A DNA stretch of 64,000 bases from Gemmatimonadota bacterium (lineage in GTDB: Bacteria > Gemmatimonadota > Gemmatimonadetes > Longimicrobiales > Gaopeijiaceae), in the NCBI GenBank assembly GCA_022822325.1, contig JAJEBW010000015.1, forward strand, positions 62,001 through 126,000. The letters run 5' to 3'. Positions 46,313 to 60,917 of the stretch are shown here, piece after piece. Made by a program: the position numbers and the translations under genes. The notes beneath the pieces are model-generated. The model ran no database searches. It was not told where the DNA came from and saw nothing but the letters and a program-made list of their open reading frames with translations. Numbering within the stretch: position 1 is the first letter of the stretch; each line of letters starts with the position of its first letter.

Positions 46313-47416
46313 TCAGCGCCGCGTCCAGATCAGGATCACTCCGCACGATGCGCCGGTGCCCGCGTACTGCGGCGGGAGGCCCGAGGAAGTGGGGAAGACT
46401 TCGACGCCGGAGACCGCCGAGGGATCGATCAGGTGGTTGACGACGGCCGGTTCGCTTCCGCCCCGGCTGGTCAGGACGCCGTCGAGGAGGACGCGCGGAT
46501 AGCAGCGCTCGGTGCTCGAGGAGCGACCGCCGCGCAGGACGATGTAGCGTTCGAGGGGGTTGTCGGGATCGGGCACGACCTCGGCGCCGGGGATGCGGGT
46601 GAAGAGATCGGTCATCTGGGCGGGCGTGCGATCCTCGATGGCGGCGCGGTCGATGAAGGAGCCGAAGCCGTCCTCGGCGCGCCTGTAGAAGCCGACGTCC
46701 TGCAGCTTGATCTCGCGGCGCTCGACGGTGACCTCGAGGGGATCGACCTCGAGCGGATCGGGAGACAGCGTGATGCGCAGATTGGTCACCCGGCCGCGGA
46801 CGACCTGGATGGATTCGGTTCGGGTGGCGAAGCCGATCTGGGTGAATTCGACCAGGCTCGGACCGGCGGGCAGGTTGTCGAGCGAGAAGCGGCCGCGCCG
46901 GTCGGTGACGGTCTCGGCATCCGGAGCGCCCTCGCCCCGGCGTTCCCGCACCCGCACGGTGACGCCCCGCAGCGCGCTGCCCCCCTGGGCGTCGTTCACC
47001 ACCCCGACGATCCCCGTCATCAGACCGTCGTCGTCGGCCGCCACCGGCTGCATGGTGGTGGTGAAGTCGCCCGGGCGCAGGACCGCGAAGTCGCCGACCG
47101 CCGGTTGGTAGAGGGGGTGCGTGAGCCGCAGCGTGTACTGGCCGACGGGGACCGAATTCAGGCTGAAGCGGCCATCGCCATCGGTCTCGACGATGAAACC
47201 CAGGCCACCGAGCGCGACGGTGACGCCGGAGATCGGTTGCCGGGTGACGGCGTCGAGGATCGTGCCCGAGATCGTGACGAGGTCGTCGCGGGGGGTCTGG
47301 GGGGTGGCGGGGGCGGGAAGCGCGAGGAAGAGCGGGAGGGCGAGGCCGAAGACGGGGAGGCGCGGCGGGGGGCGGCCGGGGGAAGCAAAGGGGGAGGGGT
47401 GCCGCGGGTGGCGCAT
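46313..47416 (-). CDS. Outer-membrane-associated protein with two carboxypeptidase-regulatory domains and a TonB plug-like domain, no barrel
   Basis: 367 residues from ATG 47416 with a signal peptide (VFGLALPLFLALPAPATPQ). Two CarboxypepD_reg-like beta domains: VTISGTILDAVTRQPISGV/GDGRFSLNSVPVGQYTLRL, and GIVVNDAQ-type strands with DRRGRFSLDNLPAGPSLVEF. A plug-like region follows (RTPAQMTDLFTRIPGAEVVP, RVLLDGVLTS) that ends at GASCGVILIWTRR. The 22-strand barrel of a TonB receptor is absent, and the end looks natural rather than truncated. Two Cys (CYP, SCG) may form a disulfide. It is divergent from the carbohydrate-binding lipoprotein, sharing the operator region at 47527-47576. Confidence 0.82.
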   Translation of the reverse strand: MRHPRHPSPFASPGRPPPRLPVFGLALPLFLALPAPATPQTPRDDLVTISGTILDAVTRQPISGVTVALGGLGFIVETDGDGRFSLNSVPVGQYTLRLTHPLYQPAVGDFAVLRPGDFTTTMQPVAADDDGLMTGIVGVVNDAQGGSALRGVTVRVRERRGEGAPDAETVTDRRGRFSLDNLPAGPSLVEFTQIGFATRTESIQVVRGRVTNLRITLSPDPLEVDPLEVTVERREIKLQDVGFYRRAEDGFGSFIDRAAIEDRTPAQMTDLFTRIPGAEVVPDPDNPLERYIVLRGGRSSSTERCYPRVLLDGVLTSRGGSEPAVVNHLIDPSAVSGVEVFPTSSGLPPQYAGTGASCGVILIWTRR

Positions 47417-47526
47417 GGATCGGAGAGCTCCGGTGGGGGCGAGGATGGCCGTGGGGGATTTTGGGGCGGGGGGGTGGGGGCGGCAAGGCGAGGGGCGGTG
47501 GGCGCGGGGATTTCCTGGGCGGTTTC

Positions 47527-47576
47527 TTGACAACGCGCCATTCTCGTCCGCACTTTGTTCGGCAACCGAACAAAGT
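47527..47576 (+). promoter_or_regulatory. Promoter with palindromic operator upstream of the glucan locus, copy 1
   Basis: TTGACA at 47527-47532, a 19-bp spacer, then a perfect palindrome: ACTTTGTTCGG (47552-47562), CAA, CCGAACAAAGT (47566-47576). The palindrome covers the expected -10 area, fitting a repressor site. The identical 25-bp element with the same TTGACA and 19-bp spacing stands before the glycosidase gene at 60838. It is 68 bp upstream of the lipoprotein ATG. The ROK regulator at 50214 is the obvious candidate to bind it. Confidence 0.75.
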
Positions 47577-47644: not shown

Positions 47645-50155
47645 ATGACAGCGCGCACTTCCTATCGGCTGGTCACTGCCTTCGCGGCCGCCTTCAACCG
47701 AAGAGGCCCGGGGCCGCGGGACGACGGAAGTCTCGCGCGGAGGGACGGGTCGCGGCCGGTCCTGCTCCTGGCGCTCCTGGCCGTCGCGGGCTGCGAGAGA
47801 GATCTCGGGGTCCTCGATCCGGCCCCCTTCCCTCCCGAAGCGGCGGTCTTCCACGACGGCTTCGGTCCCGGGGTCCAGTTCTCGGCCTTCGGCGGGTCCA
47901 AGGTCGATGCGCTGGACATCGAGCACGACGAGGTCTACCGCGGGACGGCGGCGCTGAAGTTCACGGTCCCGGCTCCCTCCGATCCATCGGGCGGCTACGC
48001 GGGAGGCGTCTTTTTTTCGGTGGTCCCCCGCGACCTGACCGGCTTCGACGCCCTCACCTTCTGGGCCCGGTCCAGCACGGCGGCCACGATCAACACGATC
48101 GGGATCGGCAACGACAACAGCGGCGCCTCGCGCTATCCCGCCACGGTCGAGGGGCTGCCCTTCTCCACCCGCTGGACCAAGTACGCCGTTCCGATTCCCC
48201 TGCCCGCCAAACTGGGCGAGGAGCGCGGCCTCTTCCTGATCGCGGAGGGTTCCGAGTATCCGGTCGGCTACGACATCTTCTTCGACGACGTGCAGTTCGA
48301 GAGACTGGGCACGCTCGCCAACCCGCGGCCGGCCATTGCCGGGCAGACGGTGAATGGCGAGGTCGGCGGCACGCTGGCGATCGGCGGCACGACGGTGACC
48401 TTCGACGTGAACGGGCGGGACCAGACCGTGTTGGCGGCTCCGGCCTACTTCACCTTCGCTTCGTCGGACGCGGGGGTGGCTTCGGTGACGCCCGACGGCT
48501 CCATCTCGCTCGTCGGCGCGGGAACCGCCGCGATCACCGCCACCCTGGGTTCGACCGCGGCGGCCGGGGCGGTGACGGTCAATGTCTTCGCGCCTCCGAC
48601 CAGCGCGCCCCCCACCCCGATGGTGCCCCCCGAGGATGTGATCTCGCTCTTCAGCGACGCCTACGACGATGTTCCGGTGGACACCTGGTCGGCGGATTGG
48701 GATGTGGCCGACGTGGAAGACGTCGCGGTGCAGGGCGACCCGGCCAAGAGGTACACGAACCTGGCCTACGCGGGGATCGAGTTCACCTCGCAGCCGGTCG
48801 ACGCCTCGTCGATGACTTACCTGCATGTGGACCTCTGGACGAACGATCCGTCGGCCTTCCGGATCAAGCTGGTGGACTTCGGCGGCAACGGCGTCTTCGG
48901 CGGCGGCGACGACAGCGAGCACGAGATCACCCTCGACACCGGCACGATGCCGCCGATCGCGTCCGGCCAGTGGAACGCCCTGGACATCCCGCTCGCGGAC
49001 TTCGCCGGCCTGGCGAACCGTGCGCACCTCGCGCAGATGATCATCTCGGGTGCAAGTCCGACGGTGTACCTGGACAACGTCTTCTTCTACACGACCGAGC
49101 CTCCGGGACCGACCGCTCCCGAGGAAGCGGCGCCGACGCCCCCGCATCCGGCCGCCAACGTCGTCTCGCTCTTCAGCGACGCCTACGACGACGCGACGGT
49201 CGACACCTGGTCGGCCTCGTGGGACCAGGCGGATGTGGAGGACGTGCAGATTGCGGGCGACGCGGTCAAGCGGTACGCCAACCTGACCTTCGCCGGAATC
49301 GAGTTCACCTCGGCCCCGGTCGACGCCAGCGCCGCGACCCACTTCCACTTCGATTTCTGGACCCCGGATCCCACCGCCGCCCCCGCCGCCTTCCGCGTGA
49401 AGCTCGTGGACTTCGGCGCCGACGGCGGCTTCGGAGGGGGAGACGACACCGAACACGAAGTCGCCCTCACCGACGCGTCCGATCCCCCGCTGGCCACCGG
49501 CGAGTGGGTGGGATTCGACCTTGCCTTCGCCGACATGACGGGTCTCGCGAACCGGGAGCACCTCGCGCAGCTCATCATCTCGGGCGACCCGAACACCGTC
49601 TTCGTCGACAATCTGTACTTCTACTCCGCCGCCGCGACCGAGCCGGCCGAACCGGCGCCGGCGCCCGCGCACGCAGCCGAGGACGTCGTCTCGCTCTTCA
49701 GCGACGCCTACACCGACGCGACGGTCGACACCTGGTCGGCCTCGTGGGACCAGGCGGATGTGGAGGACGTGCAAATTGCGGGCGACGCGGTCAAGCGGTA
49801 CGCCAACCTGACCTTCGCCGGAATCGAGTTCACCTCGGCCCCGGTCGACGCCGGCGAGATGACCCACTTCCACTTCGATTTCTGGACCCCGGATCCCACC
49901 GGAGATCCCGCCGTCTTCCGCGTGAAGCTCGTGGACTTCGGCGCCGACGGCGGCTTCGGAGGGGGAGACGACACCGAGCACGAGATCACCCTGAACGCCG
50001 CCTCCGACCCTCCGCTGGCGACGGGAAGGTGGGTCCGGTACGACATTCCGCTCACGGCCTTCACGGGGCTGACCGCGCGCGGCCACCTCGCCCAGCTCAT
50101 CATCTCGGGCGACCCGAACACCGTCTTCATCGACAACGTGTACCTGCACAGGTGA
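47645..50155 (+). CDS. Lipoprotein with galactose-binding-like, Ig-like and three carbohydrate-binding repeats
   Basis: 836 residues from ATG 47645. The signal VLLLALLAVAGCERD contains lipobox VAGC. Residues about 58-215 form a CBM11-like beta sandwich (AVFHDGFGPGVQFSAFGGSK; GYDIFFDDVQFERLG). About 225-318 is a Big_2-like Ig domain (FASSDAGVASVTPDGSISLV). Three repeats of roughly 155 residues start at 330, 506 and 681, each opening DVxSLFSDAY, with IEFTSxPVDA in the middle and closing HLAQxIISG and DNVxxY. Such repeats accompany laminarinases of Bacteroidota. It likely binds beta-glucan at the cell surface. Next come the ROK regulator, GH16 and transporter. Confidence 0.88.
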   Translation: MTARTSYRLVTAFAAAFNRRGPGPRDDGSLARRDGSRPVLLLALLAVAGCERDLGVLDPAPFPPEAAVFHDGFGPGVQFSAFGGSKVDALDIEHDEVYRGTAALKFTVPAPSDPSGGYAGGVFFSVVPRDLTGFDALTFWARSSTAATINTIGIGNDNSGASRYPATVEGLPFSTRWTKYAVPIPLPAKLGEERGLFLIAEGSEYPVGYDIFFDDVQFERLGTLANPRPAIAGQTVNGEVGGTLAIGGTTVTFDVNGRDQTVLAAPAYFTFASSDAGVASVTPDGSISLVGAGTAAITATLGSTAAAGAVTVNVFAPPTSAPPTPMVPPEDVISLFSDAYDDVPVDTWSADWDVADVEDVAVQGDPAKRYTNLAYAGIEFTSQPVDASSMTYLHVDLWTNDPSAFRIKLVDFGGNGVFGGGDDSEHEITLDTGTMPPIASGQWNALDIPLADFAGLANRAHLAQMIISGASPTVYLDNVFFYTTEPPGPTAPEEAAPTPPHPAANVVSLFSDAYDDATVDTWSASWDQADVEDVQIAGDAVKRYANLTFAGIEFTSAPVDASAATHFHFDFWTPDPTAAPAAFRVKLVDFGADGGFGGGDDTEHEVALTDASDPPLATGEWVGFDLAFADMTGLANREHLAQLIISGDPNTVFVDNLYFYSAAATEPAEPAPAPAHAAEDVVSLFSDAYTDATVDTWSASWDQADVEDVQIAGDAVKRYANLTFAGIEFTSAPVDAGEMTHFHFDFWTPDPTGDPAVFRVKLVDFGADGGFGGGDDTEHEITLNAASDPPLATGRWVRYDIPLTAFTGLTARGHLAQLIISGDPNTVFIDNVYLHR
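49160..49852 (+). repeat. Recent internal duplication in the carbohydrate-binding lipoprotein
   Basis: 49160-49327 and 49685-49852 (168 bp each, offset 525 bp) differ at only three positions by my reading, far closer than either is to the first repeat at 48632. A further identical tract around GACTTCGGCGCCGACGGCGG follows in both units. This points to a recent duplication or gene conversion of the last two binding repeats. Confidence 0.8.
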
Positions 50156-50213: not shown

Positions 50214-51443
50214 GTGACGAAGGGGAGACGGGTCCGGGCCGCCCCCGCGATCGACCAGGACGTCACCACCTCGGTCCTCCGCCTCGTCTGGAAGCGCCGC
50301 CGGGTTTCGCGCGCCGAGATCGCGCGCCGGACGGGCCGCTCGCCCTCCACCATATCGGATGCGGTCGCGCGTCTGCTCGACGCCGGTCTGTTCGAGGAGC
50401 GGGGCAGCGGCCGGAGCCGGGGGGGACGGCGCCCCATCCTGATCGGGTTTCGGGACGACGCGGGCGTCATCCTCGGGGTCGATCTGGGAGCGACCCACCT
50501 TTCGGTCATCCTCATGGACCTCCACGGCGCCGAGCTGGCGTGGCGCGAGCGGCCCCATCCCGTGCGCACCGATCCCGTCGGCGCCGGAAAGCTCGTCGTG
50601 GAGCTGTGCCGCGAATGTCTTGTCGAGTGGATGGGCGATCCGCGGCTGCTCCTGGGTGTGGGCGTGGCGGTGCCGAGTCCGGTCGATCCCGATTCCCCCG
50701 ACCGCGTGCTCGACCGGATCCATCCGGCCTGGCGAGGCGGCGCGATTCTGGACCGGATCGACGCGGCTCTGGGAGCGCCCGTCTTCGTCGAGAACGACGC
50801 CAATCTCGGTGCGGTGGCCGAACGCTGGTGGGGGGAAGCGGTGGGAATCGACGACTTCGTCTATCTGAAGGTCTCCACCGGGGTGGGCGCGGGCATCATG
50901 ATCGGGGGGGAGATCTACCGGGGCGCCACCGGGGTGGCCGGAGAGATCGGTCACCTGGCGATCGACCCCGGGGGACCGGAATGCATCTGCGGAAACCGCG
51001 GCTGTCTGACCACCTTCGTGGGCGCGCGCCACCTCCTGGACCGGGCGCGGACGCTAAGCGCGCACTACCCGGAGAGCTCCCTGGCCGGCGACCGCTTCGA
51101 CATTCACGCGATCGAGGACGCCGCGCTGGCCGGCGATCCCCTCGCGCTCCGGATCGTGAACGAGGCCGCCGAACGGTTGGGAACGGTGATCGCCGGAATG
51201 CTCAACCTCCTCAATCCCGGTTCGGTCATCATCGGCGGAAGCCTGGCCCGCGCGGGCGACCGCCTGATCGATCCCCTGCGCCGCGTCGTCGCCAACCGCA
51301 CGCTGGTCGCGTCGGCGGCGGCCTCCGACATCCGCACGAGCGATCTGGGCAAACGCGCGACCGCGCTCGGCGCCGCGACCCATGTGCTCGTCGCCGCACT
51401 CGAGAATCCCCGCCTCTTCCCCGGGGTCGGGTCCTCGCACTGA
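50214..51443 (+). CDS. ROK-family transcriptional regulator
   Basis: 409 residues from GTG 50214. N-terminal winged helix-turn-helix: VLRLVWKRRRVSRAEIARRT, GRSPSTISDAVARLLDAGLF. The C-terminal sugar-kinase-like ROK domain has the phosphate loop GVDLGATHLSVI, FVENDANLGAVAERWW, STGVGAGIMIGGEIYRGATG and the zinc motif Cys257-x-Cys259-x4-Cys264 (CICGNRGCL). ROK regulators of this type repress sugar genes and release DNA on binding a sugar. It sits inside the glucan locus, 58 bp after the binding lipoprotein and 20 bp before GH16. Predicted to recognise the palindrome at 47552-47576 and 60868-60892. Confidence 0.93.
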   Translation: MTKGRRVRAAPAIDQDVTTSVLRLVWKRRRVSRAEIARRTGRSPSTISDAVARLLDAGLFEERGSGRSRGGRRPILIGFRDDAGVILGVDLGATHLSVILMDLHGAELAWRERPHPVRTDPVGAGKLVVELCRECLVEWMGDPRLLLGVGVAVPSPVDPDSPDRVLDRIHPAWRGGAILDRIDAALGAPVFVENDANLGAVAERWWGEAVGIDDFVYLKVSTGVGAGIMIGGEIYRGATGVAGEIGHLAIDPGGPECICGNRGCLTTFVGARHLLDRARTLSAHYPESSLAGDRFDIHAIEDAALAGDPLALRIVNEAAERLGTVIAGMLNLLNPGSVIIGGSLARAGDRLIDPLRRVVANRTLVASAAASDIRTSDLGKRATALGAATHVLVAALENPRLFPGVGSSH

Positions 51444-51463: not shown

Positions 51464-52306
51464 ATGACGAACCCCAGCGCCCGCAACGCGATCCCCTTCC
51501 CGCCCCCTCCCCTCCTCCCGTCCCTTCTCTGCATCCTCGTCCTCTTCGCGGCGGCCTGCGACGACGGCGCGACGGTGGACGAGCCTTCCTGGCGACTGGC
51601 CTGGAGCGACGAGTTCGACGGGCCCGCCGGACAGCTCCCCGACCCCGCCAACTGGGTCTTCGACATCGGCACCGACTGGGGCAACAACCAGCTCGAATAC
51701 GACACCGACCGCCCCGAAAACGTGTCGCTCGACGGCAACGGCAACCTGGCCATCACCGCGCGCGAAGAGTCGTACATGGGAAGCGCCTACACCTCGGGCC
51801 GCATCAAGACGCAGGGACTCTTCGAGCAGGCGTACGGCCGCTTCGAGGCGCGCATCCGGCTCCCCTCCGGCCAGGGCATCTGGCCCGCCTTCTGGTTGCT
51901 CGGCAACGACATCGACTCGGTCGGATGGCCCGAATGCGGCGAGATCGACATCATGGAGTACCGGGGGCAGGAACCGGGAATCGTGCTGGGGACCATTCAC
52001 GGCCCCGGCTATTCGGCGAGCGCGGGGGTGAGCGGCCGCTATGCGCTGCAGGGCTCCCGCTTCGACGCCGGCTTCCACACCTTCGCCATCGAGTGGCGGG
52101 AGGACGGCATCGACTGGTTCGTCGACGACAGCCTGTACCACTCGGTCGACCATGCCGATCCAGAGGGCCGCTGGGTCTTCGACCACCCCTTCTTCATCCT
52201 GCTGAATGTGGCGGTGGGCGGCGGCTTCGTGGGTCCGCCCGACGCATCCACCACCTTCCCGCAGTCGATGCTGGTCGACTGGGTGCGCGTGTACCGGAGC
52301 GATTGA
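51464..52306 (+). CDS. GH16 beta-glucanase (laminarinase-like) lipoprotein
   Basis: 280 residues. The ATG at 51464 follows GGAGGG closely. A lipoprotein signal (LLCILVLFAAACDDG, Cys32) places it on a membrane. Clan-B GH16 fold: RLAWSDEFDGPAG, NWVFDIGTDWGNNQLEYDTD, GRFEARIRLPSGQGIWPAFW, with the catalytic E-x-D-x-x-E at Glu160, Asp162 and Glu165 (CGEIDIMEYRG), and a C-terminal WVRVYRSD. The E-I-D-I-M-E form is typical of beta-1,3-glucanases. It would cut laminarin-type chains into oligosaccharides for the transporter encoded 4 bases downstream. Confidence 0.94.
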   Translation: MTNPSARNAIPFPPPPLLPSLLCILVLFAAACDDGATVDEPSWRLAWSDEFDGPAGQLPDPANWVFDIGTDWGNNQLEYDTDRPENVSLDGNGNLAITAREESYMGSAYTSGRIKTQGLFEQAYGRFEARIRLPSGQGIWPAFWLLGNDIDSVGWPECGEIDIMEYRGQEPGIVLGTIHGPGYSASAGVSGRYALQGSRFDAGFHTFAIEWREDGIDWFVDDSLYHSVDHADPEGRWVFDHPFFILLNVAVGGGFVGPPDASTTFPQSMLVDWVRVYRSD

Positions 52307-52310
52307 CCCA

Positions 52311-54422
52311 ATGCGCACGCGGACCGCCCCTCGCGACCGGATCTCGTTCCCGCACAAGGTCGCCTACGGGATTGGGGGATTCGTCAACAACCTCCTGGCT
52401 TCGGCAATCGGAGGGATGTCGATCATCCTCACCCTGGCGCTGGGGGTGAGTCCGGCGCTCGTCGGCCTGCTGGGCCTCTTTCCGCGGATCTTCGACGCGG
52501 TCACCGATCCCCTCGTCGGGTTCATCTCGGACAACACGAAGTCGCGGTGGGGACGGCGGCGGCCCTTCATCTTCGCCGGAGCGATCTTCACCGGTCTGGT
52601 ATTCGCGCTTCTCTGGCAGATTCCGGCCCCGGCGCAATTTCGCCTAAAGCTCGTGGACTACGGCGCGGACGGCGTCTACAGCGGCGCGCAGGCGGTCCGG
52701 GAGGAGACGGAAGCGGAAGCGGTGGGGGTGGGGCAGGCCATCTCGGGATGGCTGGGCACCGCGCAGCGGATGGACGACGTCGAGCACGAAGTGGTCGTCA
52801 CGCCGCCCACGCTGCTCACCGGCCGGTGGGTGGGCATCGATCTGCCGCTGGCGGACTTCGACCAGTTGACCACGCGCGGCCACCTCGCCCAGATCCTCCT
52901 CTCGGGCGATCTCGAGAATCTCTACGTCGACAACGTGTATCTCTATCGCGCCGCGGACGGCGCGCCCAACCCGTCCGCGGAGGCGCCCCCGGCCGACGTG
53001 GAGGGGGCCACTGCACCGGCCACCGGCGCTCCCACGCCCACCCTGCCCGCCGACGATGTGATCTCCTTCTTCAGCGACGCCTACGAAGACGTCCCCGTCG
53101 GATACTTCTCCACCGACTGGGACCGCTCGGAGGTGGAAGACGCCGTTGCGGGGGGAGACCCCGTCAAGCGCTACCGCGAGCTGCGCTTCGCGGCGATCGA
53201 CTTCGGCGAACAGACGGTGGACGCCTCCGAGATGACGCATGTCCACCTCGACATCTGGACGCCCGACGAGACGCCAGAGGGCCGAAGCGACATGTACTAC
53301 TTCTGGCACTTCCTGATCGGGTCGCTGATCTTCTTCCTGGGCTACACCGTCTTCGCCACGCCGTGGGTCGCCCTCGGCTACGAACTGACGCCGGACTACA
53401 ACGAGCGCACGCGGCTGATGGGCGTGCAGAACTTCATCAGCAACTTCGCCTTCATCATCGCGCCCTGGTTCCTGGTCATCATGACCAACCCGGACTGGTT
53501 CCGGAACCAGATCGACGGCGCCAAGTTCCTCGCGCTCATGGTCTGCATCGCGACGATCGCCCTCGGCGTCCTGCCCGCCCTCTTCCTGCGCGAACGCGTC
53601 GCACCGCCGCCCAGCGCGGCCGCTGCGGGAGAACCGGAAGGCAAGACTCTCGGGGCCAGCGCCGGCGAGTTTCTTTCCGGCCTGGTGAAGACCGTCCGCT
53701 CGGGACCGTTCCTGCTGCTCTGTCTGGCGACCTTCCTGATCTTCAACAGCTTCATCATGATCTCGTCCTTCCAGATCTTCGTCTTCATCTACCACATCTC
53801 GGAGGGAAGCCAGGTGGACGGCGCCTGGCTGGCGGGCATCGTGGGCACGGTGGGGATCGTGGCCGGCTTCGGCGCCATCGCGCTGGTCACCTGGCTGGGC
53901 ACGCGGATCGGCAAACGCAGGGCCTTCTTCGTCTCGACGGCCATCTCGATGCTCGGCTACGCGCTGAAGTGGTTCTGCTACCAGCCCGAATACCCCATGC
54001 TGGCCCTTGTCCCGGCCCCCTTCCTCGCCTTCGGCCTGAGCGGGTTGTTCACCCTGATGGGCTCGATGATCGCCGATGTGGTCGATCTGGACGAGCTGAA
54101 GAACATGGATGCGCAGGGACGCAGCCAGCGGCGCGAAGGAATGTTCGGCTCGATCTACTGGTGGGTCGTCAAGGTGGGCCAGGCGGTCGCGCTCGGCCTG
54201 GGCGGATACCTCCTGGTGGCAACGGGATTCGACATCGATCTGGGAGCCAACCAGGCGGCCGACACCCTCGTCCTGATGCGCGCCTTCGACGCCTTCATCC
54301 CGCTGGCGGCCTCGGGCGTGGCGATCTACGCGATCGCCAAGTTCCCGATCACCGAGGAGATCGCGCGCCGCACCCGCGAGGAGCTGGAGAGGCGGCGGGG
54401 AGCGGGGGCGATGGCGGGATAA
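52311..54422 (+). CDS. GPH-family sugar:cation symporter interrupted in frame by a carbohydrate-binding repeat
   Basis: 703 residues from ATG 52311, four bases after GH16. Residues 1-109 are a normal MelB-like start: HKVAYGIGGFVNNLLAS, the cation-site block PRIFDAVTDPLVGFISDNTK with Asp62 and Asp66, cytoplasmic loop SRWGRRRPF and helix 3. Residues about 110-325 are not transporter: they match the binding repeats of the lipoprotein at 47645. From 326 the symporter resumes (MYYFWHFLIGSLIFFLGYTV, WVALGYELTPDYNERTRLMG) through the remaining helices to 703. Without the insert the length would be about 487, normal for GPH. By MelB topology the insert lies in periplasmic loop 3-4. It should import glucan oligosaccharides or glucosides. 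Confidence 0.88.
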   Translation: MRTRTAPRDRISFPHKVAYGIGGFVNNLLASAIGGMSIILTLALGVSPALVGLLGLFPRIFDAVTDPLVGFISDNTKSRWGRRRPFIFAGAIFTGLVFALLWQIPAPAQFRLKLVDYGADGVYSGAQAVREETEAEAVGVGQAISGWLGTAQRMDDVEHEVVVTPPTLLTGRWVGIDLPLADFDQLTTRGHLAQILLSGDLENLYVDNVYLYRAADGAPNPSAEAPPADVEGATAPATGAPTPTLPADDVISFFSDAYEDVPVGYFSTDWDRSEVEDAVAGGDPVKRYRELRFAAIDFGEQTVDASEMTHVHLDIWTPDETPEGRSDMYYFWHFLIGSLIFFLGYTVFATPWVALGYELTPDYNERTRLMGVQNFISNFAFIIAPWFLVIMTNPDWFRNQIDGAKFLALMVCIATIALGVLPALFLRERVAPPPSAAAAGEPEGKTLGASAGEFLSGLVKTVRSGPFLLLCLATFLIFNSFIMISSFQIFVFIYHISEGSQVDGAWLAGIVGTVGIVAGFGAIALVTWLGTRIGKRRAFFVSTAISMLGYALKWFCYQPEYPMLALVPAPFLAFGLSGLFTLMGSMIADVVDLDELKNMDAQGRSQRREGMFGSIYWWVVKVGQAVALGLGGYLLVATGFDIDLGANQAADTLVLMRAFDAFIPLAASGVAIYAIAKFPITEEIARRTREELERRRGAGAMAG
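52638..53285 (+). other. Carbohydrate-binding repeat inserted in the symporter, halves permuted
   Basis: Encodes about 216 residues. The first part (FRLKLVDYGADGVYSG through HLAQILLSGDLENLYVDNVY) corresponds to the C-terminal half of one binding repeat. A Pro/Ala-rich linker follows, then DDVISFFSDAYEDVPVGYFS to THVHLDIWTPDETPE, the N-terminal half of the next repeat. Both joins keep the reading frame. The segment is clearly diverged from the repeats at 48632-50155, so it was not copied from them recently. Codons TTT and CTA at the 5' join are rare for this genome. Confidence 0.8.
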
Positions 54423-54574
54423 CGGGGGGTGGTTCGGCGGCTTGAAGCGAGATAATCCATTCCTCCCTTGCCATTCCAACCCTGGCGCCGGACACCGCAT
54501 TCAGGATGGCGGAGTTCGCGCCGGCCATCGCCGCAACCTTACCTCAGCCCCGGGAACGGGAGTTTCTTTCAAGG

Positions 54575-55248
54575 ATGACCTACGAGGAAATCGCCGAATG
54601 GGCTCGCGCCGGCGAATCCGAGCGCCTGGAGTTCAAGGCCACCACGGGACAGCGAAGGGCAGCCGCCCGGACCGTGTGCGCCATGCTCAATCAGGATGGC
54701 GGGCGCGTGATCTTCGGGATCGACGACTCCGGGCGCATTGCCGGGCAGGAAGTTGGCGCCGGCACTCTACGCGACCTTCAGCGGGAATTCGGCGAGATCC
54801 AGCCGCCCGTGTCTCCGTCGGTTTCCGCAACCGAGCGCTCTTCGAACCCCGCGAATCGCTGCCCTGGAACCCTCTGATCGCCGGCGTCTTCTACCGCCGC
54901 GGCGTCATCGAGAGGTGGGGCCGAGGAACGATCAGGATGGCCGAACTGGCCGAGGAAGCGGGTCTGCCGCCACCGGAGATCGAAGACAGGGGCGGTGGCG
55001 TGACCGTGCGTTTCCGGCCCGGCGGCCATGCGCGCGCGCGGTCCCAGGCGAACGGCGTCGAAGCCCCGGGGGGGCATGCTCTCCCTGCTGGACGACGCGC
55101 GGGGATGGATCGGTTCTGCGCGAAGTCGCGCCGGGAATGGGCAAGGGCGAGGAAGGGTTGGGCCGGGCGCGGGGTGAGGGGCGGTGGCGGGCGCGTTGAC
55201 GTGGGCGGGTCGATCTGTGTGGAAGGGGTGACGCGGTTTCGTCGTTGA
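54575..55248 (+). pseudogene. Remnant of an AlbA_2/HATPase_c_4 (Schlafen-like, RecG-like) DNA-binding protein
   Basis: The N-terminal part (MTYEEIAEWARAGESERLEF, AAARTVCAMLNQDGGRVIFG, ending GEIQPPVSPSV) is a normal AlbA_2 domain. The frame then runs into a stop at 54877. The C-terminal part of the same family appears in another frame: RESLPWNPLIAGVFYRRGVI, ERWGRGTIRMAELAEEAGLP, EIEDRGGGVTVRFRPGG, up to about 55035. Roughly 250 central residues are missing and the frame shifts between about 54810 and 54840, so the gene is a deletion remnant. The end is uncertain; the frame stays open to 55248 without family resemblance. Confidence 0.75.
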
Positions 55249-55664: not shown

Positions 55665-57593
<1,929 letters not shown>

Positions 57594-57649
57594 GATTCTC
57601 GCTCCCCGCGGAGACTGGCGTTTGCGAAGGCGTTCCCGGAGGCGTTCCG

Positions 57650-60600
57650 CTACATCCCGATGTGGAGGTAGGTGCGGATCTCCCACTCGCGGCCGTTCTC
57701 GGTGCCGATGTCGGGATTGCACTCCATCCGGCCGAAGTCGTCGGGGGAGAGAGCGGGACAGTAGCGCGGCGAATGTTCGTTGAGGGTGCGCATCGCGGCG
57801 CGCACGCCGACGCGGGTCTGCGGCATGTCGAACCACTCGGGGGGACCCAGGGTGTACGAGAGGTCGCCCACGAGCTGGAGCGGGAAGGTGTGGTTGAAGT
57901 CGCGGTGGTAGTCGTAGGGACCCCAGTCGTTGACGCGCGCCATCGACTGGAACTTGACCGGGCCCGTGATGAGGCGGAGGTCGAGTCCGGCCCGGTTGAT
58001 CGTCCGCTCGTCGTCGCCGTTCGGCTCGCCCTTGCCCACGAAGAGATTGGCGATCACTCCCGCCGCGGCCGACCGCTTCGAGACGACCCGCGCCTTGAAC
58101 TCCCAGAGATCCTGCGCGGGCGGCGCTCCGGGGAAGGCGAAGGTCGAGCGTCCGTCGGCGAGGATTCCGATCCCGGCGTCCTGGGTCGTGAGGAAGTTGT
58201 AGTAGACGAAGCCGAAGGAGGTGGCGAAGCGCGCGTCTTCGCGGATATCGCTGTCCCAGGTGTACATCCAGGTGGCGGGCGTGGGATCGTAGGTGACGAG
58301 GATCTCGGCGGCGCGGGTCTCGCGGTTGGCGCGCACCGCGAAGGGGTCGTCCAGGATGTTGCGCGGGCGTCCGGGGGCGGGCACGTCCTGCGGCACCGGG
58401 CCCACCAGGGGCTTGCGCCAGAGGAAGTTGGGCGCGATCTGCAGGCTCCCGTTGGTGATCGCGAAGCCGGTGATGACGTTGCGCTGGTTGCCGCTGCCGG
58501 TGTCCTTGAGCGTCCAGCCGGTGAAGGTCTGCGTCTGGGTGAAGCCGCCGTCGGCCACGAGCCCCATGGCCGCGCCCTGCAGGTACCAGCTCAGACGGCC
58601 TCGCTGCACCTCGATCTTCGCCTTGGCGCCCAGGGCGTCCGAGGGCCTGATCTCGTCCTGCAGAACTCTGTAGCTGCCCGGCGAACCCTCGACGACCTGG
58701 AAGGGCTGGCCCTCCTTCGTGCTCCCCGACCAGATCCCGCCGAAATCGAAGACCGCGCCGCCGCGGGTGGCGGCCAGGTGAAGGGTGGCCTTGCGGGTGG
58801 GAGGCAGCGGGATCGCGAAGGAGCTCGCGGCCTTTCCGGCTTCGGCCAGATCCTCCTGGTAGATGGCGGTGGTCTCGAAGGGACCGACATTCGTCTGGTA
58901 CTTGGCCAGCACGGCCGGATTCGCTCCCCACCAGAGCTCGGGGCCGATCGCCACCTTCCACCCGGCGAAGGCGCGCTTCCCGGCGATCTCCATCCCCACC
59001 GGCGCGACCCCGTTGTAGATGTCCATGTTGGGGCCGTAGTTGGCCTCGGGGTAGAGTCCGAAGAAATCGCCCTCGTAGCCCCAGTGGTAGTGTCCGGTCC
59101 GGTAGAAGCCGTCGAGCTCGAACCACTTGTCGTCCCACGATACGCTGGCGTTGTAGACCTTCAGCCGCTCGATGTCCTGAAGAGAAAAGGTCTCGCCGTT
59201 GTCGGCCTCGACGACGCGCGAACGGCCGCGGTTTTCGTAGAAGAGCTCGTCGATGGGATTCTGGGGAACGTCGCCCAGGATATTGACGGAGACGTTGGTG
59301 ACGACGTTCTGCACGGGTCGCGCCTCCAGATCGGCGTAGAAGGACTGCATCTTGTCGAAGCCGCGGTGGCTCGGGAAGGCGCGGTTGCGCTCGGGCGTCT
59401 CCTCGGGGGTGCTGACCAGGTGGCCGCCGGTGCTGAAGGTCTCCAGCTCCGCGCGGATCCCGCTCAGATACACGCGGTCGAGGGCGGTGGAGAGAAGGGC
59501 GGCGCGGTCGCCCAGAGCCTGCACGCCGACGTTGGCCGGCTGAATGGCGGCGAAGTGATCGCGAATGGCGGCAAGGTCGGTCCCGGGCGCGTAGGGATCC
59601 AGGGCGTAGGCCTGTTGCAGCGCGTACCAGGCGGCGCGCGGGTAGAGCTCGTAGAGGTTGTTGTGGTCGGTGGGGCCCTTGGCGACGATCCCCCACCACT
59701 CTTCGTTCATGTTGTTGTCGCCCTCGACGAAGTCCTCCGGGTAGGCGTCGTTCGCCCACGACGCGTTCGTGTCCTGAATGTCGAGCCTGTCCTCCTGGCC
59801 GAACTTCCACCAGCCGTCGGTCCACTGGAAGGTGAGCCCGCCGATCGAGTTGCCGACCAGCCCCTTCCCCGCCGACTGCTCGTAGATCTCGCGCCACTGC
59901 TCGATGAGGTACTTCGCCTGGACGACCTGGTCCTCGCGCATGTTCTTCGCGTCCCACACGTCCGCGCCGAACTCGGTGAACATCACGGGGCGGTCGAGCT
60001 TGTCCTTCACCTCCTGGAAGAGGTCTCCGAAGGAGATGCCGCGGTAGACGTTGGTGCCGAAGATGTCCAGGTCGGGGATCTCCTCGGCGATGATATCGAT
60101 GTACTGGAGGTCGCCGTTGGCCATCGCGATCGGGCGGGTCGGGTCCATCTCCCTGATGCGCGCGGCCACGTCGCCGAAGAGCGAATACATGTAGCGCGCC
60201 CGCACGGCATCGGCCTCCCCGGCAGGCAGATCCTCGGTCTCGGCCGAGCTCCATACCAGCCCGTAGTTGTTCTCGTTGCCCAGGAGCCACATCAGGACGC
60301 CCGGGGTGTCGCGGAAGTCCTCGACCATCTGCTCGATCTCGCCCATCACCACCGCGCGCGCCCGCGGATCCGAGTAGTCGGTGTTGGCGTTGAAGACGCC
60401 GCCGACGGTGACGCCGTAGCGGGCGACCGCGTGGTTGAGGACGGTGTAGACGCCGTAGCGCTCGTAGATGTGGCGCACCCACCTGGGGGTGATTCCCACG
60501 TAGGCGCGGATCGCGTTTCCGCCCATCGCCCTGAGCAGCGACATCTCGCGGTCGAGCGCGGCCTCGATGATGTGGTCGGGCTCGGTCCAGAAGCTGTAGT

Positions 60601-60867: not shown

Positions 60868-60917
60868 ACTTTGTTCGGTTGCCGAACAAAGTGCGGAGGC
60901 GCGTCGGCGGATGTCAA
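60868..60917 (-). promoter_or_regulatory. Promoter with palindromic operator upstream of the glycosidase gene, copy 2
   Basis: Minus strand: TTGACA (60917-60912), 19-bp spacer, then ACTTTGTTCGG (60892-60882), CAA, CCGAACAAAGT (60878-60868). Arms, centre and spacing are identical to copy 1 at 47527-47576 when both are read in the direction of their genes. The palindrome ends 29 bp before the ATG. It probably controls the glycosidase and GH3 together. Confidence 0.75.

Follow-up and report, generated by a model that had tools for sequence, protein, structure and literature searches.

A sugar symporter encoded in the window (the whole 64,000-nucleotide stretch of Gemmatimonadota DNA analysed here) carries, in the loop between its transmembrane (TM) helices 3 and 4, a folded domain that is one complete, circularly permuted repeat of the kind borne in tandem by a lipoprotein of the same operon. 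The symporter with this permuted insert is a real, conserved and unusual architecture, for which no description was found in the open-access literature (PubMed Central, searched for CBMs inserted in GPH or MFS proteins). We establish its architecture, insertion site, permutation and single origin, the selection acting on the insert and the synteny of the symporter locus. The original prediction had recognised a GPH-like symporter of the MFS_2 kind whose loop 3-4 holds a repeat-type insert, and both Pfam, which matches the protein in two stretches, and alignment with insert-less orthologues bear it out; the circular permutation, the single origin and two palindromes bracketing the locus go beyond it.

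Table 1. Features of the symporter locus, with positions in the window
Feature	Position	Strand	Basis
Perfect palindrome ACTTTGTTCGG-N3-CCGAACAAAGT, putative ROK operator before the + operon	47552..47576
Lipoprotein (lipobox by eye), three tandem repeats of the insert's domain	47645..50155	+
Native repeat 1	48629..49090	+
Native repeat 2 (structure predicted)	49151..49624	+
Native repeat 3	49676..50149	+
ROK-family regulator	50214..51443	+
GH16 family protein, lipobox-like cysteine (by eye)	51464..52306	+	Pfam
MFS_2 (GPH-like) symporter with inserted domain, 703 aa	52311..54422	+	ORF, Pfam, predicted structure
Symporter residues 1-105, TM helices 1-3	52311..52625	+
Insert, residues 106-323, one circularly permuted lipoprotein-type repeat	52626..53279	+
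Insert first part, residues 106-219, native repeat second half, strands 5-9	52626..52967	+
Insert-only extension, about residues 126-153	52686..52769	+
Pro/Ala-rich linker, about residues 220-239, joining native C- and N-termini	52968..53027	+
Insert second part, residues 240-323, native repeat first half, strands 1-4	53028..53279	+
Symporter residues 324-703, TM helices 4-12	53280..54419	+
GH3 glycosidase, start approximate, signal peptide not evident by eye	55665..57668	-
GH2-type TIM-barrel protein, 1079 aa	57650..60889	-
Second perfect palindrome, 5' end of the - operon	60868..60892

The symporter reading frame is open throughout its 703 codons, with no stop, and its translation scores above the gathering cut-off of Pfam MFS_2 (PF13347; E 7e-55, 186.7 bits versus 27). 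Predicting the structure of the whole protein, as had been suggested earlier, gave an AlphaFold model with 12 long helices and the insert between helices 3 and 4, a MelB-like fold whose best structural matches by Foldseek are MFSD2A and MelB. The window symporter shares with these two (MelB of the GPH:cation symporters, and MFSD2A, both Pfam MFS_2) the 12-helix MFS fold and the MFS_2 match, and differs from them in the 218-residue folded domain of loop 3-4. Strict membership of the NCBIfam gph family (TIGR00792) was rejected, the window symporter scoring 148 bits against a cut-off of 231.35 and the insert-less orthologues 167-183 bits (4/4 tested; one insert-bearing orthologue was also run). 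Since the scores fall short with and without the insert, the low value is not due to the insert alone, and on these profile scores the symporter is best regarded as a divergent, GPH-like branch of MFS_2, filed as MFS_2/GPH-like rather than under TIGR00792. With the symporter as query, no second symporter was matched in its own genome (3.48 Mb, 49 contigs) at E 0.001. The helix-2 acids D62 and D66, invariant in the symporter alignment, align with MelB D55 and D59, which we take to be the cation-site acids of that helix, so that cation coupling is plausible. Unlike MelB, the window symporter lacks conserved equivalents of D19 and D124, presumably the sugar residues, which are replaced by N27 and, through a weak alignment, by A349.

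Alignment with the insert-less orthologues L021 and L022, in which the junction reads WQLPG-GRSEAFYFWYFL and WQLPR-GRPESFYFWYFL, respectively, delimits the insert as residues 106-323 (218 aa). Insert-bearing sequences begin at the motif W[QR][IM]P-APxQ[FL]R[LV]KLVD and end with WTP, five residues and G[RW]. The original prediction, of about 216 residues following residue 109, was thus right as to the presence of an insert and slightly off as to its bounds. It was likewise right that the insert resembles the lipoprotein repeats, four stretches of the adjacent lipoprotein matching the symporter query at 52-56% identity (E 4.8e-38 to 1.4e-15, own-genome search), but the insert is not a plain copy: it runs from the second half of the repeat through a linker to the first half. 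Taken singly, its halves match three native repeats (E 2e-22 to 4e-31), and the insert rotated in silico aligns with a whole native repeat in one alignment (E 2e-57; both against a three-sequence database), as expected of whole-domain homology to the lipoprotein repeat family. The AlphaFold model of the insert has nine strands in permuted order, strands 5-9 preceding strands 1-4. A non-permuted insertion was rejected because the order of the halves is reversed both in the sequence and in the predicted strands, and the insert is best described, on sequence and model together, as one complete lipoprotein-type repeat opened between strands 4 and 5. Insert and lipoprotein repeats thus belong to one domain family, yet the lipoprotein keeps the native strand order, holds several copies and has no symporter part, whereas the insert is permuted and has an extra segment of about 28 residues. 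This insert-only extension lies between native strands 5 and 6, is partly helical with pLDDT below 50 at residues 135-151, varies in length among relatives and is absent from the native fragments aligned.

Structure prediction gives both the native repeat and the insert a CBM-type beta-sandwich fold. No CBM family was assigned to the repeats at the sequence level by Pfam, NCBIfam, PDB sequence or profile search; the best Pfam E-value among 68 repeats was 0.0028, no match being convincing, and identity to the beta-sandwich CBM families 8, 11, 29 and 30 and to the laminarin-binding CBM X584 (8qx6) is only 9-17%, with no sequence-level match. The engineered protein 4rzp (phmmer E 4.5e-4) was set aside, being absent from the profile search. 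Elsewhere the repeat shares an ORF with GH16 (L087:3381-7790) or with a GH2-type TIM barrel (L097:12626-16429), an association that supports a glycan-related role. As to topology, loop 3-4 of MelB lies in the periplasm. Nearly all positive charge outside the insert sits in loops assigned inside, and the insert itself is acidic (40 D+E versus 12 K+R); because of this topology and charge distribution the insert probably lies on the outer (periplasmic) side of the membrane, in agreement with the placement proposed originally.

The surrounding genes form a compact locus, with lipoprotein, ROK regulator, GH16 and symporter on the forward strand and GH3 and GH2-type genes on the reverse strand, and a 25-base palindrome, one copy at each end, whose 21-base core occurs at only these two sites in the assembled genome (94% complete). 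This arrangement resembles a compact two-operon regulon, presumably ROK-controlled. In a scan of named genomes, the lipoprotein, ROK and GH16 genes accompany 10 of 10 insert-bearing loci, GH3 and GH2-type genes 8 of 10, and the palindrome core is likewise found in 8 of 10; the corresponding counts for the 68 insert-less loci are 19 (lipoprotein), 18 (ROK), 42 (GH16), 48 (GH3) and 23 (GH2-type). The presence of GH16 and GH3 suggests beta-glucan as the substrate.

Taken together, we consider the balance even as to whether the symporter is a cation-coupled importer of beta-glucan oligosaccharides released by GH16, the permuted CBM-type domain capturing or holding substrate at its periplasmic mouth. 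On this reading a single lipoprotein-type repeat entered the presumably periplasmic loop 3-4 of the symporter once, in an ancestor; it was opened between strands 4 and 5, and the linker joined its native ends. The insert would keep an intact CBM-type sandwich fold above the mouth of the transporter, where it may hold a glucan chain or oligosaccharide near the cavity and so raise the local substrate concentration. Oligosaccharides freed from a putative beta-glucan by the neighbouring GH16 enzyme would be imported by the inner-membrane, GPH-like and probably cation-coupled symporter, and a GH3 enzyme, predicted to be cytoplasmic, would then cleave the imported sugar. More tentatively, and at less than even probability, a secondary transporter may have absorbed its own substrate-binding protein, the permuted CBM-type periplasmic domain capturing beta-glucan oligosaccharides and delivering them to the MFS cavity. 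Such a symporter would be assisted by a binding protein within its own single chain, and would have arisen once, when adjacent genes of the operon recombined.

MFS secondary transporters are generally held to draw their substrate straight from solution, while ABC, TRAP and TTT systems make use of a binding protein, tethered or free, that captures it. ABC importers such as GlnPQ have a tethered binding domain of the venus-flytrap type and are energised by ATP. The proposed resemblance to them would lie in the covalent attachment of a capture domain to the translocator; they differ in transporter class, in the use of ATP and in the venus-flytrap domain. Whether capture can be added to a rocker-switch transporter could be tested on a conserved sugar symporter that has a binding-type domain built in, and orthologues with and without the insert offer a natural pair for comparing binding and uptake; if the reading is true, the importer may be able to keep its food molecule right at its entrance.

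Residue conservation bears on this capture reading. At least 80% of the 11 inserts keep 54 of the 81 positions conserved in at least 80% of 34 native fragments; Y258, Y288, W173, D116, D155, D156, E158 and E160 are kept in 11 of 11 inserts, and W316 in 10. Several residues invariant among native repeats are altered in the inserts. Changes comprise F117 to Y and E297 to D in 10 inserts each, G295 to T or A in 9 and H159 to D in 7; W270 is lost in 6 of 11 and kept in the window's insert, in which (as in L035) W266 is replaced by F. The inserted domain has been maintained, and its surface may have been retuned. Such systematic changes, together with the insert-only extension, would also fit a docking or scaffold domain that keeps the symporter close to the GH16 enzyme in the periplasm, to the repeat lipoprotein or to a strand of glucan, with no hand-over of substrate, a reading that we regard as somewhat unlikely. 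The GH16 gene lies directly upstream of the symporter in 10 of 10 insert-bearing named loci, as a docking partner might, but that partner is only putative, and many of the aromatic and acidic native positions are kept. The extracellular domain of PepT1 and PepT2 sits in another loop than the insert. It provides a precedent for docking on an MFS importer, since in these mammalian POT-family transporters it is described as interacting with trypsin, and a role in concentrating the supply of substrate at the transporter has been proposed for it (PMC4597091). Like the insert, which is probably periplasmic, it is a sizeable soluble beta domain on the outer face of an MFS importer; it differs in its tandem Ig-like folds, its trypsin partner, its mammalian occurrence and its lack of any carbohydrate relation.

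The phylogeny of the symporter, with the insert masked, places the 22 insert-bearing of 100 rows on one side of a branch (SH-aLRT 100, quick method); each of the other 78 rows has 3 residues in those columns, counting the flanks. Some genomes enter more than once, through two collections. L019 and L038 represent one gene, and L124, a long row, is probably paralogous. The tree leaves out the lipoprotein stretches L002-L005, the disrupted frame L017, the contig fragment L020, the weak or partial matches L023-L032, the partial L047 and L068, L125 (the second piece of an included gene), and L035-L037, L040, L043 and L044, of which L035, L036, L037, L043 and L044 apparently duplicate genomes in the tree. 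The inserts also group together (100/100) in a separate tree built from 11 of them and 34 native fragments, which singles out no donor repeat among these fragments. The insert-bearing symporters therefore form one clade with a single origin of the insertion, within which no insert loss occurs among the 100 rows. As the repeat lipoprotein adjoins all 10 insert-bearing symporters and 19 of the 68 insert-less ones, it probably preceded the insertion, and the lipoprotein of the window is likely a member of the donor family. One recombination between neighbouring genes is the likely history; an excised repeat-unit circle as its route is a conjecture. Since donor family, recipient and uninterrupted recipient all still exist in relatives, the insert is an example from nature in which a circular permutation that came about through domain insertion can be traced.

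Single origin would also fit a tolerated passenger, inserted once by recombination between neighbouring genes, on which the symporter now depends to fold or stay stable but which takes no part in handling substrate. This is a doubtful explanation, to which we give less weight than to docking. The loss of native-invariant residues such as W270 agrees with it, as does a dN/dS higher in the insert than in the rest of the symporter in 9 of 10 chosen pairs. However, the insert values (0.15-0.42, versus 0.10-0.23 for the rest) denote constraint, so that the insert is under purifying selection, and both the retention of two-thirds of the native-conserved columns and the absence of loss within the clade argue against a passenger.

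The insert recurs in relatives of the window's genome. In 12 of 59 genomes (own included) the symporter match runs unbroken through the insert, from residues 1-4 to 694-703, and in two of them it does so twice; G020 and G022 have the insert with the symporter match split further on, G005 has a symporter cut by contig ends, and in G007 (L017) the frame of an insert-bearing gene is disrupted after about residue 464. A family-wide search of 121 genomes added the insert-bearing G071 (2 contigs) and G072 (1 contig), and G001 and G021 are also insert-bearing single-contig genomes. The TM3-insert junction (47-residue query, E 1e-6) was detected in 21 of the 395 Gemmatimonadota genomes searched (the window's own among them), which belong to four genera of its family and to a single genus in a second family of that class. 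Among the best 80 of at least 585 loci in the named-genome scan, the insert occurs at the same residue in 10, labelled Gemmatimonadetes/Gemmatimonadota, Gemmatimonadales, Longimicrobiales or Candidatus Palauibacter, and none of these 80 shows it outside Gemmatimonadota; 68, from many phyla, have a net length difference of at most 10 residues across the gene, and 2 are partial. Absence of the insert from all close relatives, which together with coverage breaks the original prediction had named as the sign of an artefact, is thus not what is seen, and mis-assembly or a private gene disruption (no evidence for either was found in the window, and one relative's gene, in G007, has a disrupted frame) is rejected as having next to no probability, insert site and junctions being identical in independent assemblies, single-contig genomes included, and the insert being under purifying selection. 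Insert-less orthologues are also present in the window's own family, so that transfer of the locus between lineages, or losses, form part of its history.

Further observations concern the neighbourhood and the wider family. Between the symporter and GH3 genes (54442-55248), ORFs in two frames resemble, by eye, pieces of one AlbA_2/RecG-like gene, possibly frameshifted, and 46313-47533 on the reverse strand encodes a 406-aa protein with CarboxypepD_reg domains and a TonB plug domain, no barrel domain being matched. Only one repeat-bearing ORF was matched in the window's genome, and L037, L038, L039, L041, L042, L043 and L044 have a second one near the first. Finally, members of the symporter family are fused C-terminally to a GH3 glycosidase in one ORF (in other phyla L083 by Pfam and L070 and L081 by reading; also L097 and L107 by ORF length and the position of the GH3 match), joining transport and hydrolysis in a single chain.
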